64,000 nucleotides of DNA from assembly GCA_002162925.1 (NCBI GenBank), contig MABC01000053.1:62001-126000 (forward strand). The letters are read 5' to 3'. The stretch is from Thalassotalea sp. 42_200_T64. GTDB taxonomy: Bacteria > Pseudomonadota > Gammaproteobacteria > Enterobacterales > Alteromonadaceae. A program made the translations under genes and the position numbers. The notes beneath the pieces were generated by a model. It was not told the origin of the DNA. It was given only the letters and a program-made list of their open reading frames with translations, and made no database searches. Numbering within the stretch: the stretch's first letter is position 1; each line of letters opens with the position of its first letter. Positions 1-25,543 of this stretch are shown here, piece after piece.

Positions 1-2
1 AA

Positions 3-785
3 ATTGGCGATAAAGCCGACTGGCAAAAACGGATGGAAAAAGGCCTTGTTGGTGTTGAAAAGAATGCCTTAAATGGTTTGAACTCTATGCCGGCGAAAGG
101 TGGTAATCCAACTTTAAGCGATAATGACATTAAAGATGCGATTGCTTATTTCCTCGATTCGGCCGGAGTAAGAGCCGCAGCAAATGCAAGCAAAGCAAAG
201 GCTAAACCGAAAGCCAAGCCGGCGCCAACACCAGTGGTAAAAGCGGTTGTTAAAACAGTCAAAAAACCGAAAAAATCAAAAGTGATGAACTTTAACCGCT
301 TGATGAAGCCACCTTCAGAGTGGAATCCACCACCGTTTGAAGATGGTATTCATGACCCCGATGGTGAAGGCGCTTATATGTTACAGCCACCTAGAGAATT
401 GTTTACCAACTTGGAAAAATCCAGCTCTGGTAACCGAGTAGATTGGGTGAAAACCTTGAATAATGGCTTAATTGCGCCACGTTGGGACAAGGCCGATGAT
501 ACAAAACAGCCATTTGTGATGGATTTAAACATTGTACGGGAAGTAAAAGGTTCGATGCCGAATGTGGTTTATCCACATAAACAGCATACCCAATGGCTAG
601 ATTGTTCAAACTGTCACCCCGATATCTTTATCCCGAAAAAAGGTGCCAACCAAATTAGTATGGCCGCTATTTTAATGGGCGAAAAATGTGGTGTCTGCCA
701 CGGTAAAGTGGCGTTCCCGGTGTCTGATTGTCGTAAATGTCATTCTCAAAACAAGAAAAAGCCATTAGTGGCGAGTAGAAAATAA
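3..785 (+). CDS. Cytochrome c5-like / triheme c7 fusion protein (5' partial)
   Basis: This is the C-terminal part of a secreted multiheme cytochrome. The reading frame is open from the window edge, so the true start lies outside and the ATG at 33 is internal. The first ~55 residues match the tail of a class I cytochrome c5 domain (IGDKADWQKR, then SMPAKGG with the axial Met, then LSDNDIKDAIAYF). Its CxxCH should lie just upstream. A Lys/Ala/Pro-rich linker follows, then a triheme c7-type domain with CSNCH, CGVCH and CRKCH and the upstream PHKQHTQWLDC histidines. The last ~150 residues are clearly paralogous to the protein at 16121 (shared NRVDWV, WLDC.NCH and VAFP...CRKCHSQ). Its stop overlaps the next start by one base (TAATG), implying translational coupling. 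Family assignment is firm; the electron partner is unknown. Confidence 0.85.
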   Translation: MGDKADWQKRMEKGLVGVEKNALNGLNSMPAKGGNPTLSDNDIKDAIAYFLDSAGVRAAANASKAKAKPKAKPAPTPVVKAVVKTVKKPKKSKVMNFNRLMKPPSEWNPPPFEDGIHDPDGEGAYMLQPPRELFTNLEKSSSGNRVDWVKTLNNGLIAPRWDKADDTKQPFVMDLNIVREVKGSMPNVVYPHKQHTQWLDCSNCHPDIFIPKKGANQISMAAILMGEKCGVCHGKVAFPVSDCRKCHSQNKKKPLVASRK

Positions 786-1669
786 TGAGCAAAAATTATG
801 GTTTTAACTTATTAAAAACCATGTTCTTGAGCATGGCACTGGTGCAGCCGAATGTTTCGGCCGCACCCGTGCCCGCTGATGCGCAGTTACAACATCAGCT
901 GCAAAAAAAGTTACAACTCATCGATTATATTTTAATCGATATTGAAAAAAAATCCGCTGAGTTGTTTGCCAACGAGCCAATGTTTGCCGACAGTTACCAG
1001 TACTGCAAAAATGAAGTGAACTTAGCGCGTAAGGCCTTGGCTAAGGGCGATAACAAAGCCGCGAAAGATCACCTGGATCAAGCATTCATTAATATGACTT
1101 ATGCCCGTAGCTTCATCCAAAAAACAGCGCCAACAGCCGCAGTAAGCCTGCAAGAATACAAAAAATTACAACAATCGGTCACTGAGTTTAGCCATTCTCT
1201 GCGGCAAACACTAGCCGATAAAACGGACTCTTGGGGATTACAGCAGCAGCTGCAAGTGAAGCAAATTGTCAGCCGGGCAGATACATTATTTGCTGAGCAA
1301 AAAATGCATGCAGCCAAGCGTCAACTGGAAGATGCCTACCGCATGTTGGTGATGACTTTAACTCGCCTGAAAGATAAGCAAACAACGGTGATCAGTCTTG
1401 ACTTTGAAACCCCCCAAGATGAATGCGATTATGAGTTTAAACGCCTGGCAAGCTTTCAAATGCTGGTTAAAATGCGCAAAAACAACAGCAAACTGTCGGT
1501 TAAAAAATTGGCTAAAATTGACAGCCATGTGGCAATGGCTGATACCAAAGCTAAACGGGCCAGTGCGCTAGCCGATAAACGTCAATATGTTGAAGCGATA
1601 AAATTGCTAGAGCAAGCGAACGAACAACTGAAACGCGCATTGCGAATGACAGGTTTAAATATACTTTAG
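785..1669 (+). CDS. Secreted helical-repeat protein, paralogue A (unknown function)
   Basis: I do not recognise a named family. The 294-residue product begins with a probable signal peptide (hydrophobic stretch ending near VSAAP) and is then almost entirely helical, Lys/Ala/Gln/Leu-rich. It has repeated units of the form KG(D)...AA...LDQA (about residues 75-100, 180-200 and 265-290). It carries no CxxCH. The C-terminal ~100 residues align with the next gene (SLDFETPQDE..YEFKR and QANEQLKRALRM against ELSFESIEEEYAYELDR and STKELVRAIRM), so the two are duplicates. Coupling to the upstream cytochrome gene suggests a periplasmic partner or scaffold for it, which is inference. There is some resemblance to YfdX-like helical periplasmic proteins, but not enough to assign. 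Confidence 0.75.
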   Translation: MSKNYGFNLLKTMFLSMALVQPNVSAAPVPADAQLQHQLQKKLQLIDYILIDIEKKSAELFANEPMFADSYQYCKNEVNLARKALAKGDNKAAKDHLDQAFINMTYARSFIQKTAPTAAVSLQEYKKLQQSVTEFSHSLRQTLADKTDSWGLQQQLQVKQIVSRADTLFAEQKMHAAKRQLEDAYRMLVMTLTRLKDKQTTVISLDFETPQDECDYEFKRLASFQMLVKMRKNNSKLSVKKLAKIDSHVAMADTKAKRASALADKRQYVEAIKLLEQANEQLKRALRMTGLNIL

Positions 1670-1679
1670 GAATGTATCA

Positions 1680-2591
1680 ATGAAGTTCTTTTACATCATA
1701 ACTGTGCTAGTTATCACCCTACTTTTTACGGGTACAACCACTGCCTCTGGTGCGGTAGTCAACCCTGAGTTGCAGCAAAAACTTGCGGCCTTTCCTCTGC
1801 CCGATGATATTGCCGGTAAACCCTCGAGATTTGGTTATCTGCGCAAGCTGTTAGGCATCTCTTCAGGGGCGAAGCAAGTGATGAAAAGTGCCAATGTAGA
1901 GGCACACGATGCCTACATTAAGGCTCGTAAAATTTATATTCAAGCGGCAACAGAAAGCGATAACGACAAAGTCAATAAACTACTCGATCAAGCGGTGAAA
2001 CAAATGTATCAGGCGATCCGCTTAGCCTCGCCAAAATCGTTGGTCGATCGCAAGAAAAAACGAGATTATAAACGTCGCCAGCTCAGTGTTAACGCCTTAC
2101 TTGAAGCCTTACAGCGTATTGCCATTGAAAAGGATAATCAGGATGAAACCGATAAAATTAGAGATTATGTCAGGGAATTAACCTCCTCGGCCGACAAATT
2201 AGCCGGAAAAAAAGATTTTGACAAAGCGCGAGAACAGCTCGATGAGGCGTATTTGTTAATCAAAACCGGCATTGAAAATATGCGCCGTGGTGATGTATTG
2301 GTGCGCGAGCTGAGCTTTGAATCGATTGAAGAAGAGTACGCTTACGAACTCGATCGTAACGATACTCACCAAATGTTGATCAAACTGCTCATTGAGAAGA
2401 AATTAGCAACTAAGCCCGCCGCATTTAAAAAGCGCATACAAGACCGGGTGGCCAAAGCTAAAGACTATCGTCAACAAGCCGAGCACATGGCCGCCGATAG
2501 CGATTTTGAGCAGGCGATCAGTGAGCTGGAAAAATCGACGAAAGAATTGGTCAGAGCTATTAGAATGGGTGGTGTGTTTATCCCTGGTTAA
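1680..2591 (+). CDS. Secreted helical-repeat protein, paralogue B (unknown function)
   Basis: The 303-residue product has an N-terminal signal peptide (FFYIITVLVITLLFTGTTTASG), then a Lys-rich all-helical body with no heme motif. It is a diverged duplicate of the gene just upstream, sharing the L.FE....Y.YE.(K/L).R....QMLIK block and the closing (K/Q).L.RA(I/L)RM motif. An AGGA ribosome-binding site sits just before the ATG and the gap to the preceding gene is only 10 bases, so the cytochrome and both helical proteins form one operon. Function is unknown; a structural or chaperone role for the cytochrome is a guess from context. Confidence 0.75.
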   Translation: MKFFYIITVLVITLLFTGTTTASGAVVNPELQQKLAAFPLPDDIAGKPSRFGYLRKLLGISSGAKQVMKSANVEAHDAYIKARKIYIQAATESDNDKVNKLLDQAVKQMYQAIRLASPKSLVDRKKKRDYKRRQLSVNALLEALQRIAIEKDNQDETDKIRDYVRELTSSADKLAGKKDFDKAREQLDEAYLLIKTGIENMRRGDVLVRELSFESIEEEYAYELDRNDTHQMLIKLLIEKKLATKPAAFKKRIQDRVAKAKDYRQQAEHMAADSDFEQAISELEKSTKELVRAIRMGGVFIPG

Positions 2592-2710: not shown

Positions 2711-4564
2711 ATGGCGAACACTCAGAATAGAAACTCAATTGAGCAAATCATTTCTTCAAAAGCAATGCTTAAATTGAAACAAAAAAACAATAAACGCGCT
2801 GCCTTGGCAATCGTTGTTGTCTCCGTTGCTCTACTATTTACCGCCGTCTTTAGCTTTAACTATATTGCCGAAAACGAACTCGATAAAGCCGCCACGAAAG
2901 CGTCGTATAATCTCGATACGGTTAAGTCGCTGCATAATAATCAGCTTAATTTTCTCAAAAATGTCGTTTTTCAATTGAATTCGGAATCGGAATTACAACG
3001 TTTTATTATGGATAAAAATGAGTTGTCCAAACAATTCATTGTCGATAATTGGTTGACCATTACCGAACAGCTGAACTGGATCCATCAAATTCGCTACATT
3101 GATAACAACGGTTATGAACTGCTTAAAGTTAAATTTGACGCCGAGTTAGGCATCGCCGAGCATATTGGTGTGGTGCAAAATATTCGGTCCGAAGATTTTT
3201 TCCAGCAGGCACAAAACCTGAAACAACATGAAATGTATATTTCAGCAATCAACTTAAATCGCGAATATAATGAACTGAGTTACCCGTTAACACCGGTGCT
3301 CAGAATAGCAATGCCGGTGTATCTATCGCCGGAACATTTATCCGGCTACATAGTGGTTAACTTTTTTGCCGATAAACTGCTCTCGATGATTAATGATGTC
3401 ACCTTTAATTTTCCGGGCGTTTCCCTAGTGGTGGACGAACAAGGAAATTACTTACAAGGGTATGAAAGTGAACAAAACTGGTCTTTTGATCTCGCCGGGG
3501 CACAAACGGTTAAATTTCGTGATCAATATGCCGATGTTTGGCGGGCAATGCAGAGTGCTGAAGGCGAGTTCAGCCGTACCGATGACCGCTTTATTTATCG
3601 ACAACTAGACTTTGTTGATAACCTTGGCGAGGTGAAGCGATATTTTGTTATTCAGCATATTAACCGCAATGACGTAGACGCCGAATATGGTGCGCAAATA
3701 AGTAATCTTTACCTGGTGTTTGCCTTACTGCTGATTTTGGCAATATTTGAAATTATTGTAATTTTTAAAGGTAAGCTGAGAAAGCAAGTGGAACACAATT
3801 CTTTAGAATTGATCTCGGCCTTATTTTTCTCAAAAGAGCCGATTTTAATTACCGACTCAAAGTGGAACATTGATGCGGTTAATAAAGCCTTTAGCAAATC
3901 TACCGGCTATTTACTGGATGATGTTGCCGGCATGCCGTGCGATCACCTGTATCTGTTTGACGATGCTGATCTGCTGGCAGAAATGACCAAAACCGTTGAT
4001 CAAGATGGTTTTTGGCTAGGCGAATTGCAAAATAAACGCAAAGATGGTGGTGAAACGACAAATTTGATTTTTGTCAGTTCGGTAAAATCTATCAAAGGTC
4101 GGGTGCTGCACTATGTCGTACAAATGCTCGATATTACCAAACGAAAAATGATGGAAAACGAACTTAAAATTGCCGCCGCGGCCTTCGATACTCGCAGTGC
4201 AATCACCATTACCGATAGAAACGGCAATATTATTCGAGCCAATAAAGCCTTTACCGATATTACCGGTTATGACTTAGCAGACGTACTTGGTCAAAATCCC
4301 AGTATTTTGTCTTCCGGCAAACATGATCAACAATTTTATCAACATTTGTGGCAAGCAATTATTGATACCGGTTTCTGGCAAGGTGAAATTTACAACCGCC
4401 ATAAAAATGGTAGTATTTATCCCGAGTGGATCACCATATCTAGCATTAAAAACGATGCCGGTGAGATTATTTATTACGTGGCCACCTTTGAGGATATTAC
4501 CGAACGTAAACGACTGGAAGCGGAAATTGAAAAGCTATCTCAGGACGATGGAAAACTATATTAA
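2711..4564 (+). CDS. Membrane Cache-PAS-PAS sensor lacking its output domain
   Basis: The 617-residue protein has one membrane segment near residues 33-53, a long extracytoplasmic sensor of the Cache type (~55-320), a second membrane segment (~333-352), then two PAS/PAC domains (~370-480 and ~490-605; ITGYDLADVLGQNPSILSSG is a typical PAS motif). It ends at FEDITERKRLEAEIEKLSQDDGKLY, exactly where related proteins run into a GGDEF domain. The gene at 11473-13827 is a full-length paralogue with the same sensor and PAS layout plus an active GGDEF, so this copy appears to have lost its cyclase. It has no kinase domain. It may signal through the coiled-coil protein encoded 14 bases downstream, which is inference. 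Confidence 0.85.
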   Translation: MANTQNRNSIEQIISSKAMLKLKQKNNKRAALAIVVVSVALLFTAVFSFNYIAENELDKAATKASYNLDTVKSLHNNQLNFLKNVVFQLNSESELQRFIMDKNELSKQFIVDNWLTITEQLNWIHQIRYIDNNGYELLKVKFDAELGIAEHIGVVQNIRSEDFFQQAQNLKQHEMYISAINLNREYNELSYPLTPVLRIAMPVYLSPEHLSGYIVVNFFADKLLSMINDVTFNFPGVSLVVDEQGNYLQGYESEQNWSFDLAGAQTVKFRDQYADVWRAMQSAEGEFSRTDDRFIYRQLDFVDNLGEVKRYFVIQHINRNDVDAEYGAQISNLYLVFALLLILAIFEIIVIFKGKLRKQVEHNSLELISALFFSKEPILITDSKWNIDAVNKAFSKSTGYLLDDVAGMPCDHLYLFDDADLLAEMTKTVDQDGFWLGELQNKRKDGGETTNLIFVSSVKSIKGRVLHYVVQMLDITKRKMMENELKIAAAAFDTRSAITITDRNGNIIRANKAFTDITGYDLADVLGQNPSILSSGKHDQQFYQHLWQAIIDTGFWQGEIYNRHKNGSIYPEWITISSIKNDAGEIIYYVATFEDITERKRLEAEIEKLSQDDGKLY

Positions 4565-5237: not shown

Positions 5238-5290
5238 ATTGCCTATGTTTTTATAAGTAATCTTATTGGTTGCTTAATTTAGGAAATATG

Positions 5291-7285
5291 ATGATCCCAG
5301 AAATAGGCCACATTTCATTAATTATTGCTTTTGCTTTTGCCTGTTGTCTAAGTGTGGTGCCATTAGTCGGCGCCTGGCAAAATAATAGCCGCGTAATGAA
5401 TTTTGCTAAACCACTGAGTTTTGGCATGTTTTTATTTGTCACTTGCAGTATTGTGATCCTTGCTTACAGTTTTGCCACTGACGATTTTTCAGTGAAATAC
5501 ATCGCCGGCCATTCTAACAGTCTGTTGCCAATTTATTTTAAAATAAGTGCCGTATGGGGCGGGCATGAAGGCTCTATGCTGTTTTGGGTGTTTTCCCTTA
5601 CCGCATGGACATTTGCCGTTGCCGTATACAGTAAAGCGATGGAGCAAGTTTTTATTGCTCGCGTGTTAGCGGTAATGGGGATGATAGCCGTAGGTTTTAT
5701 TGCCTTTACTTTATTCACGTCTAACCCGTTTGAGCGTTTATTGCCTAACTTTCCTATGGAAGGCCGAGATTTAAATCCGTTGCTGCAGGATATCGGATTA
5801 ATTATTCATCCACCAATGTTGTATATGGGCTATGTTGGTTTTGCCGTGGCGTTTGCCTTTGCGATTGCGGCATTGATGAGTGGCAAGATGGATGCTGCCT
5901 GGGCTCGTTGGTCACGTCCCTGGACCGTGGCCGCCTGGGCCTTTTTAACCTTGGGTATCGCGATTGGTAGTTGGTGGGCTTATTATGAACTTGGCTGGGG
6001 TGGCTGGTGGTTTTGGGATCCGGTAGAAAATGTATCTTTTATGCCTTGGCTGGTTGGTACTGCGCTTATTCATAGTCTTGCTGTCAGTGAAAAACGTGAT
6101 ACCTTTAAAAACTGGACGCTGTTATTGGCCATCTTTACTTTCTCGTTAAATCTTTTAGGTGCTTTTCTGGTACGTTCAGGCGTGCTCACCTCGGTGCATT
6201 CATTTGCGGTAGATCCAGCGCGAGGCGGATTTCTATTAGTTTTATTAGCCATTACCGTCGGCGTAACGCTAACCTTATACGCATTACGTGCGCCGAAAGT
6301 GAGTAGTAAAAATCGATTTACTTTACTTTCTCGTGAAACCACGATTTTAGTCGCCTCCAGTATCTTGCTGGTGACGGTGATCACCATTTTATTAGGCACG
6401 CTGTATCCACTGATCATTGATGCCATGGGCTTAGGCAAAATTTCGGTGGGTGCGCCATACTTCAATGCGGTGTTTGTCCCTATGATGACGGTATTGTTTC
6501 TCTTGATGGGCGTTGGGCCACTCATTCGCTGGAAAAAGGCGCGTAAGGGCGAGCTTGCCAAACAATTAAAACCGTTGGCCATTAGCAGTATTGGTTTTGG
6601 TTTGTTATGGCCATTTTTAGTCGATGGCCAATTAAACCTGCTTGTTAGTTTGGGTATGGGCGTCGCCTGTTGGGTAATACTCACCGCCGGCAAAGATATT
6701 GTCAATAACGGCAAAAATAAAGACGGTGACTGGCAACTCGGCAGAATACCATTGAATCACTGGGGCATGGTCGTTGCCCATATCGGTGTGGCGATTAGCA
6801 TCATAGGTGTCACTATGGTGTCGAACTACGAGCTAGAAAAAAATGTTCGTATGGCCGTTAATGAACAAGTGCAGCTTTCAGGTTACAGCCTGGAATTTAC
6901 TGGTACCAAAAATGTACAGGGCGCAAATTACAGTGCAGTGCAGGGACAAATCAATGTATATCAGAATGGAAAATTTGTTACTTTACTGCAACCCGAGCGC
7001 CGTACCTATTTAGTACAAACCATGGGCATGACCGAAGCCGGCATCGATTCTGGTCTATTTCGTGATATCTACGCGGCGTTAGGCGACCCTTTACCGGGTA
7101 ATGCCTGGTCGGTGCGTTTGTATTACAAACCGTTTATTGCCTGGATCTGGTTTGGTGCTCTATTTATGGCTCTCGGTGGCGTTTTAGCCATTATGAGTAA
7201 GCGTTACCGAGCCAAAGCTGCCAGTAAAGTGGCCAAGCCGGTACGCCAATTTGTTATTGAAGATGCAGTACCACAGGGGGGATAA
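5291..7285 (+). CDS. ccmF: Cytochrome c heme lyase subunit CcmF
   Basis: CcmF is the large membrane subunit of the System I heme lyase that attaches heme to CxxCH apocytochromes in the periplasm. The protein has many membrane spans, the tryptophan-rich heme-handling WWD segment (LGWGGWWFWDPVENVSFMPW, about residues 240-260), and conserved HEGS and IHPPMLYMGYVG motifs. Length (~664 residues) is normal. I place the start at 5291 (MIPEIGHISL, as is usual in the family) with AGGA six bases upstream; the ORF track begins earlier at a TTG. ccmG follows after 3 bases and ccmH after that, but ccmABCDE are not in the window. It could be a dedicated second lyase (NrfE-like) for the multiheme cytochromes nearby. 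Confidence 0.95.
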   Translation: MIPEIGHISLIIAFAFACCLSVVPLVGAWQNNSRVMNFAKPLSFGMFLFVTCSIVILAYSFATDDFSVKYIAGHSNSLLPIYFKISAVWGGHEGSMLFWVFSLTAWTFAVAVYSKAMEQVFIARVLAVMGMIAVGFIAFTLFTSNPFERLLPNFPMEGRDLNPLLQDIGLIIHPPMLYMGYVGFAVAFAFAIAALMSGKMDAAWARWSRPWTVAAWAFLTLGIAIGSWWAYYELGWGGWWFWDPVENVSFMPWLVGTALIHSLAVSEKRDTFKNWTLLLAIFTFSLNLLGAFLVRSGVLTSVHSFAVDPARGGFLLVLLAITVGVTLTLYALRAPKVSSKNRFTLLSRETTILVASSILLVTVITILLGTLYPLIIDAMGLGKISVGAPYFNAVFVPMMTVLFLLMGVGPLIRWKKARKGELAKQLKPLAISSIGFGLLWPFLVDGQLNLLVSLGMGVACWVILTAGKDIVNNGKNKDGDWQLGRIPLNHWGMVVAHIGVAISIIGVTMVSNYELEKNVRMAVNEQVQLSGYSLEFTGTKNVQGANYSAVQGQINVYQNGKFVTLLQPERRTYLVQTMGMTEAGIDSGLFRDIYAALGDPLPGNAWSVRLYYKPFIAWIWFGALFMALGGVLAIMSKRYRAKAASKVAKPVRQFVIEDAVPQGG

Positions 7286-7288
7286 AGT

Positions 7289-7840
7289 GTGGCTAAGTTA
7301 ATTCGTTTTTTGCCATTAATCGGTTTTATGTTATTAGGCTTTTTGCTATATCGAGGGTTATTTTTAAACCCACAAGCCATGCCTTCGGCGTTAATTGGTA
7401 AAAAAATGCCTGAGTTTCAGTTAACTCAACTGGAAAATAGTAATGCAGTGGTTTCTACCGCCGATTTAAAAGGCAACATAGTATTGCTTAATGTGTGGGC
7501 AACCTGGTGCCCGGCCTGTAAGCAGGAACACCCTTATTTGGTCGACTTAGCCCGTAACCCCAAGGTAAAACTCTATGGTGTAAACTATAAGGATGAGCGT
7601 CATGCGGCGATGCAATGGTTGCAAAATTATAAAAACCCATACGTGTTCTCTATTTTTGATGTTGATGGCTCGTTAGGATTAGATTTGGGGGTGTTTGGTG
7701 CTCCAGAAACGTTTGTCATCGACCATACTGGTACCATACGTAAACGCTTCGCCGGTCCGATTAACGGCATTGTTTGGCAACGAGAGTTTATGCCGATAAT
7801 TGCACAAATTGAAGCAGAAATCTTTGCCAGCGAAGGGTAA
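7289..7840 (+). CDS. ccmG: Periplasmic thioredoxin CcmG/DsbE
   Basis: Membrane-anchored thiol reductant that keeps the CxxCH cysteines of apocytochromes c reduced for heme ligation. The 183-residue protein has one N-terminal membrane anchor (residues 8-24) and a TlpA/DsbE thioredoxin fold with the active site WATWCPAC (~residue 72) and the family GVNYKDE and GAPETF (cis-Pro loop region) motifs. The start is GTG, three bases after the ccmF stop. It lies inside the ccmFGH operon. Confidence 0.95.
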   Translation: MAKLIRFLPLIGFMLLGFLLYRGLFLNPQAMPSALIGKKMPEFQLTQLENSNAVVSTADLKGNIVLLNVWATWCPACKQEHPYLVDLARNPKVKLYGVNYKDERHAAMQWLQNYKNPYVFSIFDVDGSLGLDLGVFGAPETFVIDHTGTIRKRFAGPINGIVWQREFMPIIAQIEAEIFASEG

Positions 7841-7845
7841 TTATT

Positions 7846-8313
7846 ATGAGTAAACCAATATTTTTAGTCGTCATTTGCGCGTTGTTTTTTTTCTCGTTGT
7901 CTATCGGGGCAAGCCCGGTAGACACCTATGTATTTAAAGATCCACAAACTAAACAGCAGTTTCAGTTATTAACCAAAGAATTACGCTGCCCGAAATGTCA
8001 AAATCAAAATCTGGCCGACTCCAATTCACCCATTGCCGCTGATTTGCGTAAAATTGTTTACGATATGCTGCAAGACGGTAAAACTAGCGAACAGATCGTT
8101 GACTTTATGGTCTATCGCTACGGTGATTTTGTACTCTATAAACCGAAAGTCAATAAAATGACCTATGTACTTTGGTTTGGCCCGGTGGCGTTGTTTTTGC
8201 TGGTGCTTACCGGAATTTTTATCTCGGTGCGTCGCCGCTCAGGCAATAAAGCCGTTGAGGAAGTCGCTTTATCGGCCACTGAGCAAGCGAAATTGGATGA
8301 TTTAATTAACTAG
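7846..8313 (+). CDS. ccmH: Cytochrome c biogenesis protein CcmH
   Basis: Thiol-redox subunit of the heme lyase that holds the apocytochrome and passes it to CcmF. The 155-residue protein has a signal peptide (ends near IGASP), the defining LRCPKCQNQNLADSNS motif with its redox CxxC, and one C-terminal membrane helix (~105-125). This is the short CcmH form without the TPR domain; the CcmI-like TPR partner is probably the gene at 32649. It is the last gene of the operon, followed by a strong hairpin terminator. Confidence 0.95.
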   Translation: MSKPIFLVVICALFFFSLSIGASPVDTYVFKDPQTKQQFQLLTKELRCPKCQNQNLADSNSPIAADLRKIVYDMLQDGKTSEQIVDFMVYRYGDFVLYKPKVNKMTYVLWFGPVALFLLVLTGIFISVRRRSGNKAVEEVALSATEQAKLDDLIN

Positions 8314-10287: not shown

Positions 10288-11442
10288 TTGCAACGTACAG
10301 TAGTGGTGAAGCACAAGTGGTTGGTTAAAGCTCTGGTCATTGGCGTGATCGGTGTTTCTGTCGTTTTCGTCACCGCCGATAACGCTTTTGATGACAATGA
10401 GTTTACTAATGAATTTGATCACTCCCCGAATTTTTCAGTTCGAGCAAAAACAACGTTTGACAAATATTTAATCCAGGCCGAGCAGGGCGATGTAAAAATA
10501 CAGAATTTCATTGGTTATATGTTGTTTTTTGGCGAGGGTGTTGAGCAAAATTATGATCTGGCGCACGCCTGGTTTCATCGCGCCGCAGAGGCAGGTTTAC
10601 CCCTAGCCAAACGTAACTTAGGGCTCTTGCACGCCAGAGCCGTGCCCGGCATTCCACAACGTTTTTTAGATGCCGATGAATCAAACTACTGGCTTAGCCA
10701 AACTGAAAAAGAATATGAAACCAATTACAATGGCTCCGTCGATGCTGGCTTGTATCAACAAGAGCAAATGTACTCTGATGAGGTTATTGCCATTGACTAC
10801 TTCCTTACAGGCACACCATTTGAATTAGGCGAAAAAGTTTACCAAACGTTTTGTCATGGCTGTCATGGTATTAATGGCATTGCCTCGTACAATGCTGCCC
10901 CTTCCTTTGCCAAAGGTGAACGTTTAAATAAAGATGACTCGCAACTTTTGGCCAGCATTAAAGATGGCAATGGCTTGATGCCCGCATGGGGAAATACACT
11001 TTCAGAGAGTTTGAGTGAAAATGTGCTACTGTATCTGCGAAATGGTTTTGTGCAGCAAAATAATATTACCTCAGCAACCAATACCGATGATTCCGCGATT
11101 GACGCAAACCTATTAGGCGCGCAAACCTATTCCAAATATTGTGCCGGCTGCCATGGCTTTAATGGCATTGCTTATTATGTTAATTCTCCTTCTTTTGCAC
11201 TTAGCCAACGTTTGGATAAGAGTGATGCACAGTTAAAACGCAGTATCCGAAATGGTATGAATATGATGCCCGACTGGGGCAATAAAATTAGTTCACAAGA
11301 AATCAATGCGGTAGTTGCTTATATTCGTACATTATCAAGAGATTTTAACGCCAGTATTGACCAACAATTGAAAGACCCGTTAAGCCATTATTATCGCTTT
11401 CGCCCAAAAGAAAGCTGGTTTAGAACTAAACCCGTTCAATAA
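10288..11442 (+). CDS. Sel1-repeat / diheme cytochrome c fusion
   Basis: The 384-residue protein combines an N-terminal membrane anchor or signal (~residues 10-30), one or two Sel1 repeats (~60-110; FIGYMLFFGEGVEQNYDLAHAWFHRAAEAG) and two tandem class I cytochrome c domains. The heme sites are CHGCHGINGIA (~190) and CAGCHGFNGIA (~285), with candidate Met ligands in LMPAWG and MMPDWG. The start is TTG with an AAGGA site ~8 bases before; the first in-frame ATG would cut into the Sel1 repeat, so TTG is preferred. The two heme domains are close duplicates. Likely a periplasmic or membrane-tethered electron carrier; the fusion to Sel1 is unusual. Confidence 0.85.
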   Translation: MQRTVVVKHKWLVKALVIGVIGVSVVFVTADNAFDDNEFTNEFDHSPNFSVRAKTTFDKYLIQAEQGDVKIQNFIGYMLFFGEGVEQNYDLAHAWFHRAAEAGLPLAKRNLGLLHARAVPGIPQRFLDADESNYWLSQTEKEYETNYNGSVDAGLYQQEQMYSDEVIAIDYFLTGTPFELGEKVYQTFCHGCHGINGIASYNAAPSFAKGERLNKDDSQLLASIKDGNGLMPAWGNTLSESLSENVLLYLRNGFVQQNNITSATNTDDSAIDANLLGAQTYSKYCAGCHGFNGIAYYVNSPSFALSQRLDKSDAQLKRSIRNGMNMMPDWGNKISSQEINAVVAYIRTLSRDFNASIDQQLKDPLSHYYRFRPKESWFRTKPVQ

Positions 11443-16120: not shown

Positions 16121-16735
16121 TTGTTAATTGTTGGAATTAAGTTGCTAAAATCATTAATACTTTTATTGTTTCTCTTTGCATTCGCCAGCAATGTACTGGC
16201 CGATGATAGAAGCTGGAAAAAATTAAGTGAAGACAATCTTCACGATCCTGAAAATCCGGCGTTAATGGAATTACAAAACCCTGAAGATGTGTTTCAAGGT
16301 ACACCAGCCGATTTTAAAGGTACGGGGAACCAGGTAGATTGGGTAAGAGCGCTTAATCAGGAGGTGATAGTTCCACGCACCCAGCTTTATGACTCCACCG
16401 AAATCAAGGTTCTTGATTTAGATATTATTATGGATGCAACTGCCGGAATGCCTTTGGTACGTTTTCCCCATAAAGCCCATACTGAGTGGTTAGATTGTGA
16501 TAATTGTCACGATAAAATATTCAAAAAAGAAGCGGGTGCAACTCCGGTGAATATGTTTGCTATTTTAGCCGGTGGCTACTGTGGCAGATGTCATGGCGCG
16601 GTCGCGTTTCCACTTACCGAATGCCGACGGTGCCATAGTCAAAGTCGCAAGACTTTTAAAGGCAAACCTGGCGCTCAACCTAAACCGAGTAAAGTTTACC
16701 TCCCCGTTAAAGAGCAAAAGAAGGCAGACCGATGA
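16121..16735 (+). CDS. Periplasmic triheme cytochrome c7-type protein A
   Basis: Small secreted electron carrier. The 204-residue protein has a signal peptide (LLFLFAFASNVLA-DD) and a triheme c7-type domain with CDNCH, CGRCH and CRRCH (~residues 127, 156, 170), plus additional His ligands in FPHKAHTEWLDC. It is paralogous to the C-terminal part of the fusion protein at the window start. The start is TTG with a CGGAG site ~10 bases upstream; an alternative TTG lies 21 bases downstream. Its stop overlaps the next start (ATGA), so it heads a coupled operon of c7, c7, NHL protein and 11-heme cytochrome. Confidence 0.85.
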   Translation: MLIVGIKLLKSLILLLFLFAFASNVLADDRSWKKLSEDNLHDPENPALMELQNPEDVFQGTPADFKGTGNQVDWVRALNQEVIVPRTQLYDSTEIKVLDLDIIMDATAGMPLVRFPHKAHTEWLDCDNCHDKIFKKEAGATPVNMFAILAGGYCGRCHGAVAFPLTECRRCHSQSRKTFKGKPGAQPKPSKVYLPVKEQKKADR

Positions 16736-17115
16736 ACTTAAATAAAATGATATTAATATCGCTATTGTCTATTCTTGCTATGTTCATTGGAACTTCCGCA
16801 AAAGCTGAATATGCGGACGTGGTGCTTAACAAATATTCTGAGGCAAATGATATGCGCCCGGTGATTTTTCCCCATTGGTTCCATCGTGTACGTTTTCGTT
16901 GTAAAGTTTGCCATTCAGAATTAGGCTTTGAAATGCGAGCCGGCGCCAATGATATCAGCATGGAGAAAATCATGGACGGTGATTATTGTGGTATGTGTCA
17001 TAATGAAGAAATTGCATGGGGATTAGATCATTGCGATCGCTGCCATTCCGGTAAACCAGGTTTAAAAAGTGGCATAAAAGGTGGCCATCAGACTATGGGC
17101 CCTTCTATTTGGTAA
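16732..17115 (+). CDS. Periplasmic triheme cytochrome c7-type protein B
   Basis: The 127-residue protein has a signal peptide (ILISLLSILAMFIGTSAKA-EY) and three heme sites, CKVCH, CGMCH and CDRCH, with His ligands in FPHWFHRVRF. It is a minimal PpcA/c7-like triheme cytochrome, a short paralogue of the gene it overlaps by four bases (ATGA). Such proteins usually shuttle electrons across the periplasm between a quinol-linked enzyme and an outer-membrane or terminal cytochrome; that role here is inferred from the family. Confidence 0.87.
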   Translation: MNLNKMILISLLSILAMFIGTSAKAEYADVVLNKYSEANDMRPVIFPHWFHRVRFRCKVCHSELGFEMRAGANDISMEKIMDGDYCGMCHNEEIAWGLDHCDRCHSGKPGLKSGIKGGHQTMGPSIW

Positions 17116-17135
17116 AAAGAGAATTAATATTTTTT

Positions 17136-18206
17136 ATGGGTAATGTGAGTAAAACAGTTTTTTTACTGTGTGTTTGTTTCGCTATTACAGCCTGCAGTAC
17201 GGTCGATGAAACGCGTAAATTTGATTTTATTGCCGATAAAAATGATCTCAAACAAACTTGGCCATATGGCAATGAAATTGCCCGTTATCTTTATCTGGGC
17301 GATATTACCGGCGAAAACAATCTGACTGCCATAAAACAAAAAAATGAAAGTACTTTAGGCAAACTTTGGCAATTTATTATTGGCGAGTTTGAAGACGAAC
17401 CTGTAGTGTTAAAACGGCCTCAGTCGATAGTTGGTGATGAATTAGGCCGGTTATTTATCACCGATATATCCAATCAAAGTGTTTTTGTCTTTGATACGGT
17501 TAATGGCACCATGGAGCAATGGCCTAATGCCAAGCAACATTATGATTTTGTCAGCCCTGTGGCTGTGGCGCTTGGCGTAAATAATGAAATTTTAGTCGCC
17601 GATTCTGTATTAGGTAAAGTGTTTCGGTTAGACTCTACCGGTAAACCTATTGGTATTATTGAGCACTCTTCGCTAATTAGGCCGACAGGGATAGTTAGGG
17701 TAGCACAAGAAAATAAGATCTATGTAAGTGACACGGTTAGTGACAATATCAAAGTGTTTTCTGATCAAGGCGAATTGCTTGAAACTCTTGGTAAAAGTGG
17801 CAATGGTAACGGCGAGTTCAACGGCCCTACATATTTAGCAAAACACCCGCAAGGGATTTTAGTTGCTGATACATTGGCGGCGAGAGTACAATTAATTGCT
17901 AATGCAAATGGTAAAGTAGAATATATACGAACTCTTGGCGAGCGTGGCCTGCAAATAGGCGATTTAATGCGCCCCAAAGGGGTTGCTGCCGATTCCGCCG
18001 GCAATATTTATATCGTAGAGTCGTACTTTGATCATCTATTAATTTATAATAGCAACGGCGAGTTTCTCATGCCCTTGGGTGGTACCGGATTTTCTCCCGG
18101 TGAATTTTATTTACCGGCTGGCATCTGGATTGATGCCAAAGATCGAGTGTTCATCGCAGATATGATGAATGGCCGTGTGTCTGTTTTTCAGTTTTTAGGC
18201 GACTAA
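17136..18206 (+). CDS. NHL-repeat beta-propeller lipoprotein
   Basis: The predicted lipoprotein has lipobox AITAC-S, so it should be lipid-anchored, followed by an NHL-type six-bladed propeller. Repeats such as RPTGIV...YVSDTVSDNIKVFS, GEFNGPTYLA.....LVADTLAARVQ and GLQIGDLMRPKGVAADSAGNIYIVES cover ~residues 95-355. I prefer the ATG at 17136 because it gives a proper lipoprotein signal; the ORF track starts at a TTG overlapping the upstream stop. It carries no heme. NHL propeller genes sit beside multiheme outer-surface cytochrome genes such as omcS/omcT in Geobacter, and the context here is similar, suggesting a cytochrome-partner or assembly role (inference). Confidence 0.85.
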   Translation: MGNVSKTVFLLCVCFAITACSTVDETRKFDFIADKNDLKQTWPYGNEIARYLYLGDITGENNLTAIKQKNESTLGKLWQFIIGEFEDEPVVLKRPQSIVGDELGRLFITDISNQSVFVFDTVNGTMEQWPNAKQHYDFVSPVAVALGVNNEILVADSVLGKVFRLDSTGKPIGIIEHSSLIRPTGIVRVAQENKIYVSDTVSDNIKVFSDQGELLETLGKSGNGNGEFNGPTYLAKHPQGILVADTLAARVQLIANANGKVEYIRTLGERGLQIGDLMRPKGVAADSAGNIYIVESYFDHLLIYNSNGEFLMPLGGTGFSPGEFYLPAGIWIDAKDRVFIADMMNGRVSVFQFLGD

Positions 18207-18297
18207 TCGCTTTTTTAATTGAGTGTTATTTATTGGATGTTAATAATTGAGTATGTTGGTAATGCAAGTTAGCGCTGTTTGCTCTCACAAAAATAAT

Positions 18298-20712
18298 ATG
18301 GTGTTATTACATAAGCTAGTGCTTAGCAGTTGTTTATTGTTAATGTCTTTAATCTTCATTGATTCAGCAAATGCGGCCGCAGAATCGAATATTCGTAATA
18401 CCAAACATAATTTATCGGCAAATAGTGGCAATACCTTAAGTGCTGATACTGAAACCCAAATTTGTGTGTTTTGCCATACCCCACATGGTGCAACCAGCGG
18501 TGCCGCGCCGTTATGGAACCGTGAATTAAATACTAACTCTTCTTATACCATGTACGATTCATTATCCTTTGACGCCAGAGGTGAAATCGCCAATACTCCT
18601 GGAGGAAGCTCGAAACTCTGTCTCTCATGCCATGATGGCACAATTGCCATTGGCAAGGTTAATGTGTCAAATGGCGTGGTTAACCCAAACATTGTTATGC
18701 AAGGCACCGCTGGTGACGGCACTATGCGGGCAGGCTCAGGTACCAGTAGTGGTTACACTCGTGATCTGGGCGTTAACTTGTCTAATGATCATCCTATTTC
18801 ATTTACGTTTAATACCGATTTAGCCAATGCCGATGGCGAGTTGCGAGATCCCGCCACGGCAACCTATACCGAAAATGCACAAACCAAGACGCTTATTGGT
18901 GATCGTTTACCAGGGGATCATCCACTAATTCCAACAGAAAATGGTCAGGTACAATGTACCAGTTGTCATGATCCACACATTTGGGATCCGACGGATACCA
19001 ACAGAAAATTTTTAAGAGCCAATCGGTTGCAAAAAAACACACCGGCAACCGGCGGCAATTTCAACCCTGATAACGATCAAATATGTATCGCTTGTCATGA
19101 TAAAAATAAAATGGGCAATGCATGGGGCCTTTCAGCACATGCAAACAGTAGCACGGCGAATGAAACCTACTCAGACGCAGCGGCTACCCTAAGAGAATTC
19201 CCGTTAGGCACTAAAGTTTGGCAAGCCGGTTGTTTAAATTGTCATGATACCCATACGGTGAATAATTCTCGCCGGTTATTACGAGCGGGTACCGATCACG
19301 CAGCCGATGGTATTACTGCTCCTAAATTAAGTGGTAGCAGTGCTATTGAGCAAACCTGTTATCAGTGCCATCGTCCACAAGCACAAAGTGCGTTAACGTC
19401 TTCTTTTAACTCTGTTCCGGATATTTACAGTGATTTTAACGATGCGGGTAATATCCATATGCCAATTAGCAACAGTGATCAAAATAAAACTGAAATACAT
19501 AATATTACCGATGGCGATTTTATAGAAGATCGGGGTAAGTTAGGACTGACCAATCCGCTCAATCGCCATGTCGAATGTACTGATTGCCATAACCCGCATC
19601 GAGTGATGAAAGCAAAGAAATTTAATGCGTCTGTTATTGATAATTCTGCCGACGGCGGCACCCATAATCATGGTGCCGGTCATACCAATATTGCCTCAGG
19701 GGCGCTAAAAGGCTCAATTGGCGTTGAGCCAGATTATGGCTCTGATACCACATTTGACACCAATCCAGTGACAGCCGATGCCCGCATTGCTTATATAGTA
19801 AAAAAAGGCGTTGGTACTAGTGAAGCGGTTACCGCTCCTCATGTTACCCGAGAATACCAGGTATGTTTGCGTTGTCATTCGGATTATGGTTTTGGCACTC
19901 AACCGCCGCAATTAGGACAAATGGGCGGGGGGACAACTAAAGGCACCAATGGCGTTGACAATTTAACCAACCAGGCGATGGAGTTTCAGGCGCCAACGTC
20001 TCACCAGGGTGAAGGAACGGGCACTGGTGGTTGGGCGTCAAATAACCACAGGTCATGGCATCCGGTGATGCGACCAACAAGAAGAACTCAAGGGGGAGAT
20101 TCGCGTTGGAATGCCCCCTGGAAAGATCGCGGCAACCAAACCATGTATTGCAGCGATTGTCATGGCAATAAAACCAATGCCGACACAACCACACCTAAAA
20201 CCGGTCAGCCATGGGGGCCCCATGGCTCAAGCAATAATTTTATTTTGAAAGGGCAGTGGGATCCAACAAGTATTTCAACGTCGGGTGGTGACAATCAAAC
20301 TTTATGTTTTCGTTGTCATTCAACTATCTATTTAAATAATGAGAATGATAGTAATACTGGTTTTGTGCATGGCACACATAATAAGAGAATTGATGCGGCT
20401 GACACCAACCGTTGTACCAAATGCCATGTCGCGCTGCCACATGGCTGGAAAAATAAGGCATTTTTAGTGAACTTAAATGATGTTGGCCCAGAGTGCGATG
20501 GTATGGCTGAAGGTACCAATGTAAATGATAGTGATCATCCGGCCTATTTCAGTGGTGCTGGTAATAATTATTTTACCTGTCCACCCTATTACTCCAAAGC
20601 GGTTATGAGGATAAAATCTTGGAGTCAAAGTGGTAGCTGGGGCGAGAGTGATTGTGGTGTCGCGGGTGGTTCTGGCGGAACTGGCTGGATGAAGAATACA
20701 TGTCAAGATTAG
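18298..20712 (+). CDS. Secreted 11-heme cytochrome c
   Basis: Large multiheme electron-transfer protein of about 800 residues. I count eleven CxxCH sites: CVFCH, CLSCH, CTSCH, CIACH, CLNCH, CYQCH, CTDCH, CLRCH, CSDCH, CFRCH and CTKCH, several in the doubled-CxxCH style (CHTPHGA, CHDPH, CHNPH). Numerous extra His residues could be distal ligands. The C-terminal ~80 residues have no heme but four Cys and a Gly/Ser-rich tail. The ORF runs from a TTG at 18247; I chose the ATG at 18298 because it begins a good signal peptide (LVLSSCLLLMSLIFIDSANA), though no start has a strong ribosome-binding site. It ends the c7-c7-NHL operon. Surface or periplasmic location and partner are unknown. Confidence 0.9.
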   Translation: MVLLHKLVLSSCLLLMSLIFIDSANAAAESNIRNTKHNLSANSGNTLSADTETQICVFCHTPHGATSGAAPLWNRELNTNSSYTMYDSLSFDARGEIANTPGGSSKLCLSCHDGTIAIGKVNVSNGVVNPNIVMQGTAGDGTMRAGSGTSSGYTRDLGVNLSNDHPISFTFNTDLANADGELRDPATATYTENAQTKTLIGDRLPGDHPLIPTENGQVQCTSCHDPHIWDPTDTNRKFLRANRLQKNTPATGGNFNPDNDQICIACHDKNKMGNAWGLSAHANSSTANETYSDAAATLREFPLGTKVWQAGCLNCHDTHTVNNSRRLLRAGTDHAADGITAPKLSGSSAIEQTCYQCHRPQAQSALTSSFNSVPDIYSDFNDAGNIHMPISNSDQNKTEIHNITDGDFIEDRGKLGLTNPLNRHVECTDCHNPHRVMKAKKFNASVIDNSADGGTHNHGAGHTNIASGALKGSIGVEPDYGSDTTFDTNPVTADARIAYIVKKGVGTSEAVTAPHVTREYQVCLRCHSDYGFGTQPPQLGQMGGGTTKGTNGVDNLTNQAMEFQAPTSHQGEGTGTGGWASNNHRSWHPVMRPTRRTQGGDSRWNAPWKDRGNQTMYCSDCHGNKTNADTTTPKTGQPWGPHGSSNNFILKGQWDPTSISTSGGDNQTLCFRCHSTIYLNNENDSNTGFVHGTHNKRIDAADTNRCTKCHVALPHGWKNKAFLVNLNDVGPECDGMAEGTNVNDSDHPAYFSGAGNNYFTCPPYYSKAVMRIKSWSQSGSWGESDCGVAGGSGGTGWMKNTCQD

Positions 20713-20786: not shown

Positions 20787-21773
20787 ATGAATATCTTTAT
20801 CACAAAAATTGCCTCAGTAAAGCTGACGTTTGTATTATTGCTTATGCTGCTTTTTACTATTATTGTTGCTTATAATGGTGAATTTTCCTGGGTAACTTGG
20901 CTAGCATTACCGTTAGTTTTATTGTTATTGAATTTAGTTGCTGCGATATTTTCAAATAAGGCTTTTCGCAGTAATTTACCGTTATTACTGTTCCACTTAA
21001 CCTTGTTGCTTACCGTGCTTTTAGTTGCACTCAGCCGTTTAACTTATCTGGATGCTCATGTCGAACTATTTGAAGGCGAAGTGTTTGATGGCAAACTTGC
21101 AGGCCAAAAAAATGGCTTATTGCATCAATACAGCCTAAAAGCCGGTGATTTCACCAATATTGCCGTGCAATTAGAGTTCACGCCTATGGTGGCCATTACC
21201 GCAATACGTAGTCGAGTTTTGGTAGCCACTAACGCGGGGCCGCATGAAGTTGTCATTGGTGAGCATAAACCCTTGGTTATCAATAACTACCGATTTTATG
21301 TTAGTCGTAATGTTGGTTATTCTGCCGTGTTTAGCTGGCAGGCCCTGCAAGAAAATAGTCCTAACCTGCCGACAGAAACAGGTACCATTCACTTTCCACC
21401 ATTTTTGACCAATCAATTTAACCAGTCGAATTCCTGGCAAGTGCCTAATAGCGATATTGAGCTTTGGTTTATGTTACAGCCTGAAGAAGATTTGTTAGCA
21501 GAAAGAAAATCAATTCAGCTAGCGCCACCACAAAATCATTATATGGTCGTGCGTAACGGTGAAGATCGGCAAGAATTAAGAGTCGGACACCAGTTGCATT
21601 TGCCACAAGGCATCTTAACTTACCATGGTCTACGTACCTGGATGGGTTACAAAGTTCATTATGACCCTTTTAAGGCTTATTTATTAGCAACTTCACTACT
21701 AACGGTATTGTGTTTAGCCTGGTTTTTTTGGCAAAAATTCAATCAACGCAGCTGGCTAACGCCAGTAGCATAA
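20787..21773 (+). CDS. ResB-like System II cytochrome c biogenesis protein
   Basis: Likely one half of a System II (Ccs/Res) heme-ligation complex. The 328-residue protein has three N-terminal membrane helices (~residues 12-85), a large extracytoplasmic beta-rich domain (~90-290; e.g. FRFYVSRNVGYSAVFSWQ-like region) and one C-terminal helix (~297-318), which is the ResB layout, shorter than canonical ResB. It lies 74 bases after the 11-heme cytochrome on the same strand. The matching CcsA is at 24701 on the opposite strand. Co-occurrence with System I ccmFGH nearby is notable. The ResB call rests on topology and context, so it is moderately confident. Confidence 0.75.
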   Translation: MNIFITKIASVKLTFVLLLMLLFTIIVAYNGEFSWVTWLALPLVLLLLNLVAAIFSNKAFRSNLPLLLFHLTLLLTVLLVALSRLTYLDAHVELFEGEVFDGKLAGQKNGLLHQYSLKAGDFTNIAVQLEFTPMVAITAIRSRVLVATNAGPHEVVIGEHKPLVINNYRFYVSRNVGYSAVFSWQALQENSPNLPTETGTIHFPPFLTNQFNQSNSWQVPNSDIELWFMLQPEEDLLAERKSIQLAPPQNHYMVVRNGEDRQELRVGHQLHLPQGILTYHGLRTWMGYKVHYDPFKAYLLATSLLTVLCLAWFFWQKFNQRSWLTPVA

Positions 21774-21879
21774 GATGTATTATTATGTTGCTGCCTATTC
21801 GGCTAATGGTTGATCAAAACAAAAAATTGTTCTGCATGGAAAAATTAATGTAAAATACTGCATTAACCCAAGACCCAAC

Positions 21880-23364
21880 TTACTGTACCGTAAACTCTTT
21901 ACTTCCTAATATTTGCTCACCAGCTAAAATGACTACTTGCCAAGTGCCTCTCTGAAGAGCTTGTGGAGGCGTTAGTTTTTTATACCTATCGCAAATGCCG
22001 GGTGAAACTTTGAGTTCAAATGGAAAGCCCTCACCATTTGGAGAAACTAAAACTAAGGTAAACCGCTGGAATCTGTCTTCGCAAAACCAAATAGTTTGTA
22101 TATCAATTCTATCCGTACTATCAAGAGTGTTTTTAGGAGTAAAACCAGTGCTATCGTTTATCAATCCAACATTTACAGATTTTAAGCGGTTTATGTTAGT
22201 GCTATTAGCGGGTAGCGTGGTGAATTGATCGATTAAAAATGAATAAGAGCCTAATAGCCTGGTATTTTGTTTAATGGTGATTGTCCACTGGCCAATAGTC
22301 AAAGGCTGCTGATGAAATAGCCGCGTTAGTATCCCGGATTGGTTTTTGTCTATGGTTAAAGATTGCTTAAATTGTTGGTGTACCTTTCCGAAACTTGATT
22401 TGGGCCCTTTCCAATATACATCAAAGGTTTCATTCGGTTTGGGGTTTAACCAACGAATATTTATCGCTACCTGCGCTTGCGGGTTAAATGTGTTAGCTTC
22501 GGTAAATATTATTGGTGAGCGGTTTTCTTCAGCGGTGTGACGTTGCTCCAAATAACCTACTTTGAGCTTCGCTAAACCTTGATGATTATTATATAGCTGA
22601 GCATTTTCTTTGACTAACGGCTTTTGCTCGAATAATGTTAAAAAGTCATTATGCTTTTGAATATACCAACTTTTAGTTAATTTTGCATAGTGCTCTGTTT
22701 GTTGCTTAAATTCATCTCTGAGCGCTAAGTTATGCTGTAAATCAGGGTCAATGTTTAAATCATACAAGTGTTTTTCTTGGTTATAGCCCTGTTCAAGGTA
22801 TTTGTATTGACCATCCTTTAACCCCCAATAATGTGGCTGGGCATTGCTTTCAAAGAAATATTGAATTTTTGTTTGAAAATTTTCAGTAAGTACATTACGA
22901 GTTTTATAATCGCCAAAATTGTTATTTCCAGCAATGCTTGCCAAAGTAGGGAGTATGTCACCATGATCTATACTTCTCTTAGAAATCACCGATTGCGTGA
23001 TAGCTCCTGGCGCCGAGATCATTAAGAAGTTTTTTAAAGTGCTTTCCTTTAATAACATACGCTCTAGTGCATGATCGCCAGTAATTGCAAAAATGGTTTT
23101 CTGGTAAAGATTATTTGTTTTTAGCTGTTCTATTAAGCTACCTAGAGCATTATCTACAAAATGAAGTGCTTTATAATAAGCTTTGTCATTGACTGTTAGT
23201 TCGTCATAATCGGTTAGTAACACGCTTTGAAAATTACCAGGCAGAGTGAACGGTTGATGTGGTGAATTACTAATAAACTGAACAAAGAATGGCTTCGAAT
23301 TATCACTAGTGTTGTTGATCCATTGATTCATTCTCTTAACTACGACTCTGTCATCCCCCCCCAA
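21880..23364 (-). pseudogene. Sulfatase/LtaS-type membrane protein, 3' part of frameshifted gene
   Basis: This frame encodes the C-terminal half of an alkaline-phosphatase-superfamily sulfatase: GDD..., then FFVQFISNSPHQPF and the metal-binding ITGDHALE (~residue 95), then ~300 residues of an accessory C-terminal region with a repeated beta-like layout. It begins inside a run of eight G (minus strand) where the upstream part of the gene runs out of frame. Adding one G would join NSWGG to DDRVVVKRMNQW in a single ORF of about 890 residues. Alone it lacks the catalytic Thr and membrane domain, so it would be inactive. Confidence 0.8.
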
Positions 23365-24560: not shown

Positions 24561-24700
24561 TAGTTATTCCAAATAAAAAATTCGTCCAGTTAGGTTGTAA
24601 TCAAATCATTGCACACTAATGTTGATAGTGTTGAGCCATAGTAAAATTTAGGTAATATTTAATTTTGTCATTAGAGATTTAATCTGTGTAATTATAATTT

Positions 24701-25543
24701 TTAAATCACTCCTTTATGCGCCACCATGGAAATAAATGGTACCCCAAAAAAGGTGACGAAAGATATGATAAATACCATGATGATCATGACTGAACTAATA
24801 TCTGGTTTTATTTTCCAAGTAATCCGAGCATGTAATAACAAAGCAACAAGTAACCAAGAAATGAATGACCAGGTTTCTAAAGAATCCCAAGCCCAATATC
24901 GTCCCCAGGCGTCTTGCGCCCATATGGCTCCCGCGATTAACATTAAGGTGTCAAAAATCAAACCGACGGCGACAAAGCGGAAGGCCAATATTGCTAGGTT
25001 TTCATCTGCAGGTAGTTGCTTAAACCAATGATAACATGTTCTAAATTTTCGCAGTAAAATAACAACAGATAAGGCCACCGCCATATAAAATATTCCAAGG
25101 TATACTTTCCCAAAAGCCACATGAATATACAGCCATATTGTTTGATATGTTGCAGGGTAAATTGATTCTTCTGCAGGCGCCAATAATATCCAGGCCATCA
25201 TCATAAATAACACCGGTTGAGCGATGACCAGTGGTAATCGAATTTCTTTAATTCGCCAAAACACCAATAGCCAGATTAAGGTGAAACTCCAGATATTACT
25301 CGATAGTATTTCAAACATAGTGACAAATGGGCCATGGTCGAGTCGATACCATCTTAGAGCCAATGCCATGGTGTGGATAACGAAACCTAACGAGGTTAGA
25401 TAAGGAATAATAGTAGGCACTTTACGCCACACAACAGTGCTGATTATGGCGATGCTGCCAGAGAAAACGTATAAGGTTAACGCTGCCCATAAGAATAATA
25501 ACTCATTATCTAAAGAGGATAGTTTAACTAACCAGTCAGTCAT
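24701..25543 (-). CDS. ccsA: System II cytochrome c biogenesis protein CcsA/ResC
   Basis: Heme-channel subunit of the System II cytochrome c synthase. The 280-residue protein has about eight membrane helices and the CcsA form of the WWD domain, WAQDAWGRYWAWDSLETWSFISW (~residues 205-228). Flanking His ligands appear in FVIHTMAL and YIHVAFGK and near LLLHARITWK. Its usual partner is ResB (Ccs1); the ResB-like gene at 20787 is 3 kb away on the other strand with the broken sulfatase between, suggesting a rearrangement of a former resB-ccsA pair. The ATG lies divergent from the TPR gene. Confidence 0.9.
   Translation of the reverse strand: MTDWLVKLSSLDNELLFLWAALTLYVFSGSIAIISTVVWRKVPTIIPYLTSLGFVIHTMALALRWYRLDHGPFVTMFEILSSNIWSFTLIWLLVFWRIKEIRLPLVIAQPVLFMMMAWILLAPAEESIYPATYQTIWLYIHVAFGKVYLGIFYMAVALSVVILLRKFRTCYHWFKQLPADENLAILAFRFVAVGLIFDTLMLIAGAIWAQDAWGRYWAWDSLETWSFISWLLVALLLHARITWKIKPDISSVMIIMVFIISFVTFFGVPFISMVAHKGVI

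Follow-up and report, generated by a model that had tools for sequence, protein, structure and literature searches.

The three genes at the start of the window (64,000 nt of Thalassotalea sp. 42_200_T64, contig C33:62001-126000 of a 3.6-Mb genome in 94 contigs), a c5-c7 fusion cytochrome followed by two secreted helical proteins named H1 and H2, lie at the centre of a gene cluster of the Uet (undecaheme electron transfer) type, and their conserved association belongs to a pathway that has already been described. The analysis establishes gene order, co-occurrence, predicted fold, duplication and domain fusions; H1 and H2 probably contact the triheme c7 cytochromes and serve as a periplasmic, modular helical-repeat scaffold docking these proteins. 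As a non-heme helical protein kept in nearly every Uet cluster, and in some of them joined to a predicted copper carrier, H is a concrete candidate for the periplasmic organiser of electron passage to cytochrome conduits in the outer membrane. Uet clusters now extend into marine Thalassotalea-related Gammaproteobacteria.

The fusion cytochrome and the tandem helical proteins

The start of the window cuts the fusion cytochrome gene (window 1..785, forward strand; ORF 3-785 is its 3' part), and the 5' end lies on the same parent contig. The full gene (C33:61859-62785, equal to L010:6859-7785) encodes 308 aa with 1+3 hemes: a signal peptide precedes a class I domain, which a Lys/Ala/Pro linker joins to a triheme c7 domain. 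Four CXXCH motifs are present, and the N-terminal one, CVACH in the class I domain, is encoded upstream of the window. In comparisons with the PDB and Pfam, the matches were to class I cytochromes c555/c5/ScyA for residues 25-99 and to the Geobacter c7 domains 3ov0/3oue (c7 polymers) for residues 231-300, so the label of a c5/c7 fusion in the original prediction was right. Its stop codon TAA (783-785) shares one base with the ATG of H1 (785), giving TAATG, which is the overlap that had been claimed. The predicted match to the c7 protein at 16121 was also recovered: the two are 47% identical over 142 aa, a stretch that takes in the c7 domain.

H1 (785..1669, forward strand, 294 aa) and H2 (1680..2591, forward strand, 303 aa) are separated by 10 nt. 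They are paralogues with 31% identity over 139 aa (pairwise E 4e-15), both have signal-peptide-like N-termini, and CXXCH is absent from both sequences. AlphaFold2 predicted all-helical models for H1 (pLDDT 88.7, pTM 0.51) and H2 (pLDDT 92.5, pTM 0.62), which agrees with the earlier claim of tandem helical paralogues with signal peptides and no heme site. Both models consist of successive three-helix units of ~90 aa each, three of them in H1, and the third module carries a strongly conserved cap, LVRxLxFxxxEEEYxYExDRNDTHQML...AIRxxGxxIPG. No cofactor motif was found in the H family. The signal-peptide-like N-termini, mostly without a lipobox, suggest that the H proteins are periplasmic.

No fold in the PDB matched this architecture. 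Foldseek, run with the H2 model on the PDB, found no hit with E below 0.3, its top matches being de novo designed helical repeats, and the phmmer matches of H2 in the PDB were all weak (best E 0.03). An identity as tetratricopeptide repeats (TPR), taken as 34-residue two-helix repeats above the Pfam cutoff, was rejected, since curated TPR models match a minority of members in a scattered and weak manner and H2 not at all, and the AlphaFold2 models show three-helix modules. The YfdX family (PF10938) was likewise set aside, with H1 reaching 21.6 bits against a cutoff of 26.6 over 33 residues of a 149-position model. The description of H as a modular family of ~90-aa three-helix units appears to be new, as we found no earlier one.

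Among 36 two-copy clusters, all 72 genes sorted by position across a single branch of the tree (local support of this branch low, 0.195), with H1 of the window on the H1 side and H2 on the H2 side. That uetF is an old duplicate pair also appears new, no description having been found. The pair is not obligatory, because the H1 of Thalassotalea sp. G2M2-11, placed between UetE and H2, has decayed to a pseudogene (L013:2416-2750; L136), and H1 is missing from many clusters. Short ORFs of 60-80 aa upstream of H2 in Rhodocyclales, matched by iterated profiles, were discarded as other-frame readings of the cytochrome gene.

The trio is part of a Uet gene cluster

Uet, known from Ca. Tenderia electrophaga, is a proposed electron route across the outer membrane (PMC10734462, PMC12575090); both papers cite Eddie et al. 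2022, and the latter, a review, names the genes uetABCDEFGHIJ. The parts given for Gallionellaceae and Leptothrix in PMC10734462 and PMC13386937 are the tetraheme UetA, the PPIase UetB, the porin UetC, the triheme UetDEG, the NHL proteins UetHI and the undecaheme UetJ. UetF has no description in the portions of published Uet text examined. In Ca. Tenderia electrophaga, the triheme genes Tel_16515, 16520 and 16530 appear to share a transcript with Tel_16525, a tetratricopeptide-repeat gene that lies between triheme genes; its peptides were detected, the triheme group is highly expressed, Tel_16545 is an undecaheme protein, and a role of Tel_16525 in aligning cytochromes in the bridge was proposed in 2017 (PMC5371394).

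By gene order, Tel_16525 would be UetF, and H1 and H2 would fill the uetF slot as first and second copy; this assignment comes from order and the 2017 'TPR' description. The association had been thought undescribed, a claim that has to be given up, since Tel_16525 corresponds to UetF by order and H1 and H2 occupy its slot: it is the published Uet cluster, whose triheme/'TPR' co-transcription and alignment role were put forward in 2017 (PMC10734462, PMC12575090, PMC5371394). H resembles Tel_16525 in position and in helical-repeat character, and a cytochrome-aligning role had already been proposed for the latter (PMC5371394). The 'TPR' label fits H poorly, as curated models match few members and the modules are three-helix units.

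The agreement with Uet extends to the content and order of tetraheme, PPIase, porin, triheme, triheme, helical/'TPR', triheme, NHL and undecaheme genes. Upstream of the fusion lie, in order, two propeller proteins, the tetraheme protein, the PPIase, a 604-aa protein and a triheme c7 protein. The tetraheme UetA (L009:15179-16099), predicted to be extracellular, has four CXXCH and matches the OmcE filament 7tfs (E 6e-19), and UetB (L009:16406-17392) has a Rotamase domain (E 3e-13). The 604-aa protein (L009:17435-19249) had no Pfam or NCBIfam match and was assigned from place and sequence inspection as a putative outer-membrane barrel in the UetC position. UetD (at L009:19421), the fusion in the UetE position and UetG (16121..16735, forward strand) all exceed the TIGR04257 cutoff for triheme c7 proteins. 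UetG is followed on the same strand by an overlapping extra small triheme c7 gene (16732..17115), an NHL beta-propeller protein of UetH/UetI type (17109..18206), the undecaheme UetJ (18247..20712; 11 CXXCH), whose N-terminal part matches the filament cytochrome OmcE (7tfs), and a ResB-like cytochrome c maturation protein at the cluster end (20787..21773). The CcsA-type cytochrome c assembly gene, which follows ResB in most clusters, is displaced and inverted here (24701..25543, reverse strand).

In this genome the cluster is split, and 13.5 kb downstream separate UetG, the extra c7, the NHL protein and UetJ from the first half. The homologue of the 16121 gene immediately follows H2 in a relative with the same order (L014/L137), and therefore both stretches are one cluster. 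The two related cytochrome operons of the original prediction are better taken as a single split cluster: 16121 belongs to the displaced second half of a cluster that is contiguous in the relative. Apart from the split, the present cluster differs from published Uet in having two UetF copies, c5 on UetE, an extra small c7 after UetG and a host that lacks detectable RuBisCO. No RuBisCO was found in a search of this genome, which is 87% complete, and autotrophic electron uptake is therefore not supported here.

Other systems resemble the cluster less closely. The OetABI/OmcX/OmcS clusters belong to syntrophic sulfate reducers and share a porin with cytochromes, a PPIase, beta-propeller proteins and a filament-type cytochrome, but have 16-/26-heme cytochromes where Uet has its triheme set and undecaheme protein, and the excerpts consulted name no helical partner (PMC10553843, PMC5539420). 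The PCC3/PCC4 porin-cytochrome clusters are likewise predicted outer-membrane electron conduits in overlapping taxa, whereas they use other cytochromes and an inner-membrane b-type protein, and no helical pair is described in the portion of the source consulted (PMC5566968). DFE_0448-0465 and OetABI were dropped as the closest system once Uet, as described, proved to fit gene for gene.

The stretch between the two halves contains ccmF, a TlpA/DsbE-like thioredoxin gene and ccmH, so that System I (CcmF, thioredoxin, CcmH; 5270-8313) and System II (ResB, CcsA; 20787-25543) maturation genes are found within ~20 kb. Adjoining H2 is a membrane sensor (2711..4564, forward strand) with an HK_sensor/dCache-like domain, two PAS domains and no output domain; Thalassotalea sp. 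G2M2-11 and two Gammaproteobacteria MAGs have the same sensor beside H2. The protein at 11473-13827 (reverse strand) is similar in its sensor and PAS regions and has an apparent GGDEF domain, while the first protein ends after PAS. The gene at 10288-11442 encodes a fusion of a Sel1-repeat protein with two cytochrome c domains of class I, and another triheme c7 domain was seen behind an Lcl_C (DUF1566-type) domain at L009:1768-2829.

Distribution and co-occurrence with triheme cytochromes

A scan for the H2 family across 85,462 species genomes yielded 80 loci, and ~130 related loci were read in all. The recurring order was tetraheme, PPIase, barrel, c7, a second c7 that may carry c5, one or two H, c7, sometimes a further c7, one or two NHL, undecaheme, ResB and CcsA, and it was found in Rhodocyclales, Burkholderiales, Magnetococcales and several Gammaproteobacteria; one Schekmanbacteria MAG has the cluster with a different gene order. 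Thalassotalea sp. G2M2-11 (L021/L136) has the fusion-H2-PAS arrangement seen here.

Among 369 class genomes, H was present in 42, TIGR04257 in 48 and UetJ in 40. The triheme c7 family occurred in 42/42 genomes with H and in 6/327 without (Fisher 3e-49), and H in 38/40 genomes with UetJ (Fisher 9e-45); these tests ignore kinship, and the 42 H genomes span 32 genera. In both UetJ genomes without H, a contig ends beside uetE, and one of them carries a truncated cupredoxin-H at the edge. In a sample of 108 H groups, drawn from longer loci chosen by similarity to H2 and described by these fractions, a c7 gene flanks both sides in 79 and directly adjoins at least one side in 92. The predicted fixed association of c7 cytochrome and helical proteins is borne out by these counts. 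Helical proteins commonly occurring without the cytochrome would have spoken against it; since every H genome carries TIGR04257 and 92 of the 108 groups adjoin c7, such cases are not common at genome level, and a minority of members stand apart, including one on contig C79 of this genome.

A cupredoxin-like domain on UetF

In gammaproteobacterial clusters L118-L129 (12/12 fetched), the UetF slot is filled by one longer protein with an extra N-terminal domain. Such proteins, here called cupredoxin-H, belong to a gammaproteobacterial clade (L114-L129, L031, L033, L044 and L138), and some copies have a lipobox. Across 19 sequences, some of them duplicates, a His and a Cys-x2-His-x2-Met motif are invariant, with a spacing that we take to be that of amicyanin-type blue copper sites. 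The domain reaches up to 34 bits against a cutoff of 27 for the Pfam At5g54830-like domain, and its PDB profile matches to laccase and pseudoazurin are weak; these matches are suggestive only of a cupredoxin fold. The c5-fused UetE was found in 46 loci, none with cupredoxin-H, and cupredoxin-H in 16 loci (some duplicates), all with a triheme-only UetE; 42 loci have neither domain. Shared ancestry could lie behind this mutual exclusion. A cupredoxin-like domain on UetF that never occurs with c5 on UetE appears to be new, as no description was found.

Proposed role of the helical proteins

In this reading the fusion is UetE with an extra c5 domain, and H1 and H2 are a duplicated UetF that most likely provides docking sites for the triheme c7 proteins; certain lineages would have a tethered one-electron carrier docked there as well. 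Electrons would then pass between soluble carriers of the periplasm and the cytochrome conduit of the outer membrane, and the conserved last module with the C-terminal cap may be the best candidate interface. A scaffold accounts for the position of H among c7 genes, for the lack of a cofactor motif, for the repeat architecture and for the fusion to a redox domain. It is also favoured by the uetA-J order matched in Beta- and Gammaproteobacteria and Magnetococcales, and by the sequence matches of UetA and UetJ to the OmcE filament. Against it stand free-standing H paralogues and the decay or absence of H1 in places. Further, and only tentatively, UetF may be a dedicated docking hub keeping an exchangeable one-electron carrier near the triheme cytochromes, either a c5 heme domain tethered to UetE or a cupredoxin tethered to UetF depending on lineage, by which one conduit could be wired to different soluble carrier pools.

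The main rival to the scaffold is a folding-helper role, which we judge unlikely: the H proteins would be periplasmic assembly chaperones or holdases acting in triheme folding or heme receipt together with the PPIase and ResB/CcsA, and not parts of the conduit. The cluster does have these folding and maturation genes of its own, weak YfdX similarity was seen in 13/73 members, and both H proteins are basic (pI 9.5 and 9.3; family median 8.8) and UetD-type c7 acidic. However, fusion of a chaperone to a cupredoxin-like redox domain would be unexpected, and the Ca. Tenderia gene, belonging to a highly expressed triheme group and detected by its peptides, looks more like a stoichiometric component (PMC5371394).

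Much less probable still is that the H proteins are redox or metal proteins themselves, for example with a b-heme in the helical bundle. All-helical bundles can bind heme, and H230 and M232 are more than 90% conserved within H2, but H1 and cupredoxin-H do not conserve them and heme-binding families gave no match. We give equally little credence to a signalling branch formed by H and the adjacent PAS sensor, with the cytochrome as a chance neighbour. The great majority of clusters place H between c7 genes with no PAS gene, although the same sensor follows H2 in several relatives, some of whose loci lack cytochromes (L019, L020, L099), and stand-alone H genes of Magnetococcales can adjoin kinases or regulators.

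Stand-alone helical paralogues

The paralogue on contig C79 of this genome (L144:10496-11455, 319 aa) lies beside a MerR-type regulator and a glyoxalase-like gene, and no multiheme cytochrome gene was seen in the 20 kb covered. Stand-alone H proteins of Magnetococcales (L145-L151, L153) have up to four or five recognisable ~90-aa modules; their genes lie beside histidine kinase/response regulator genes at L147 and L148, and beside a protein with five CXXCH at L150 and L151.
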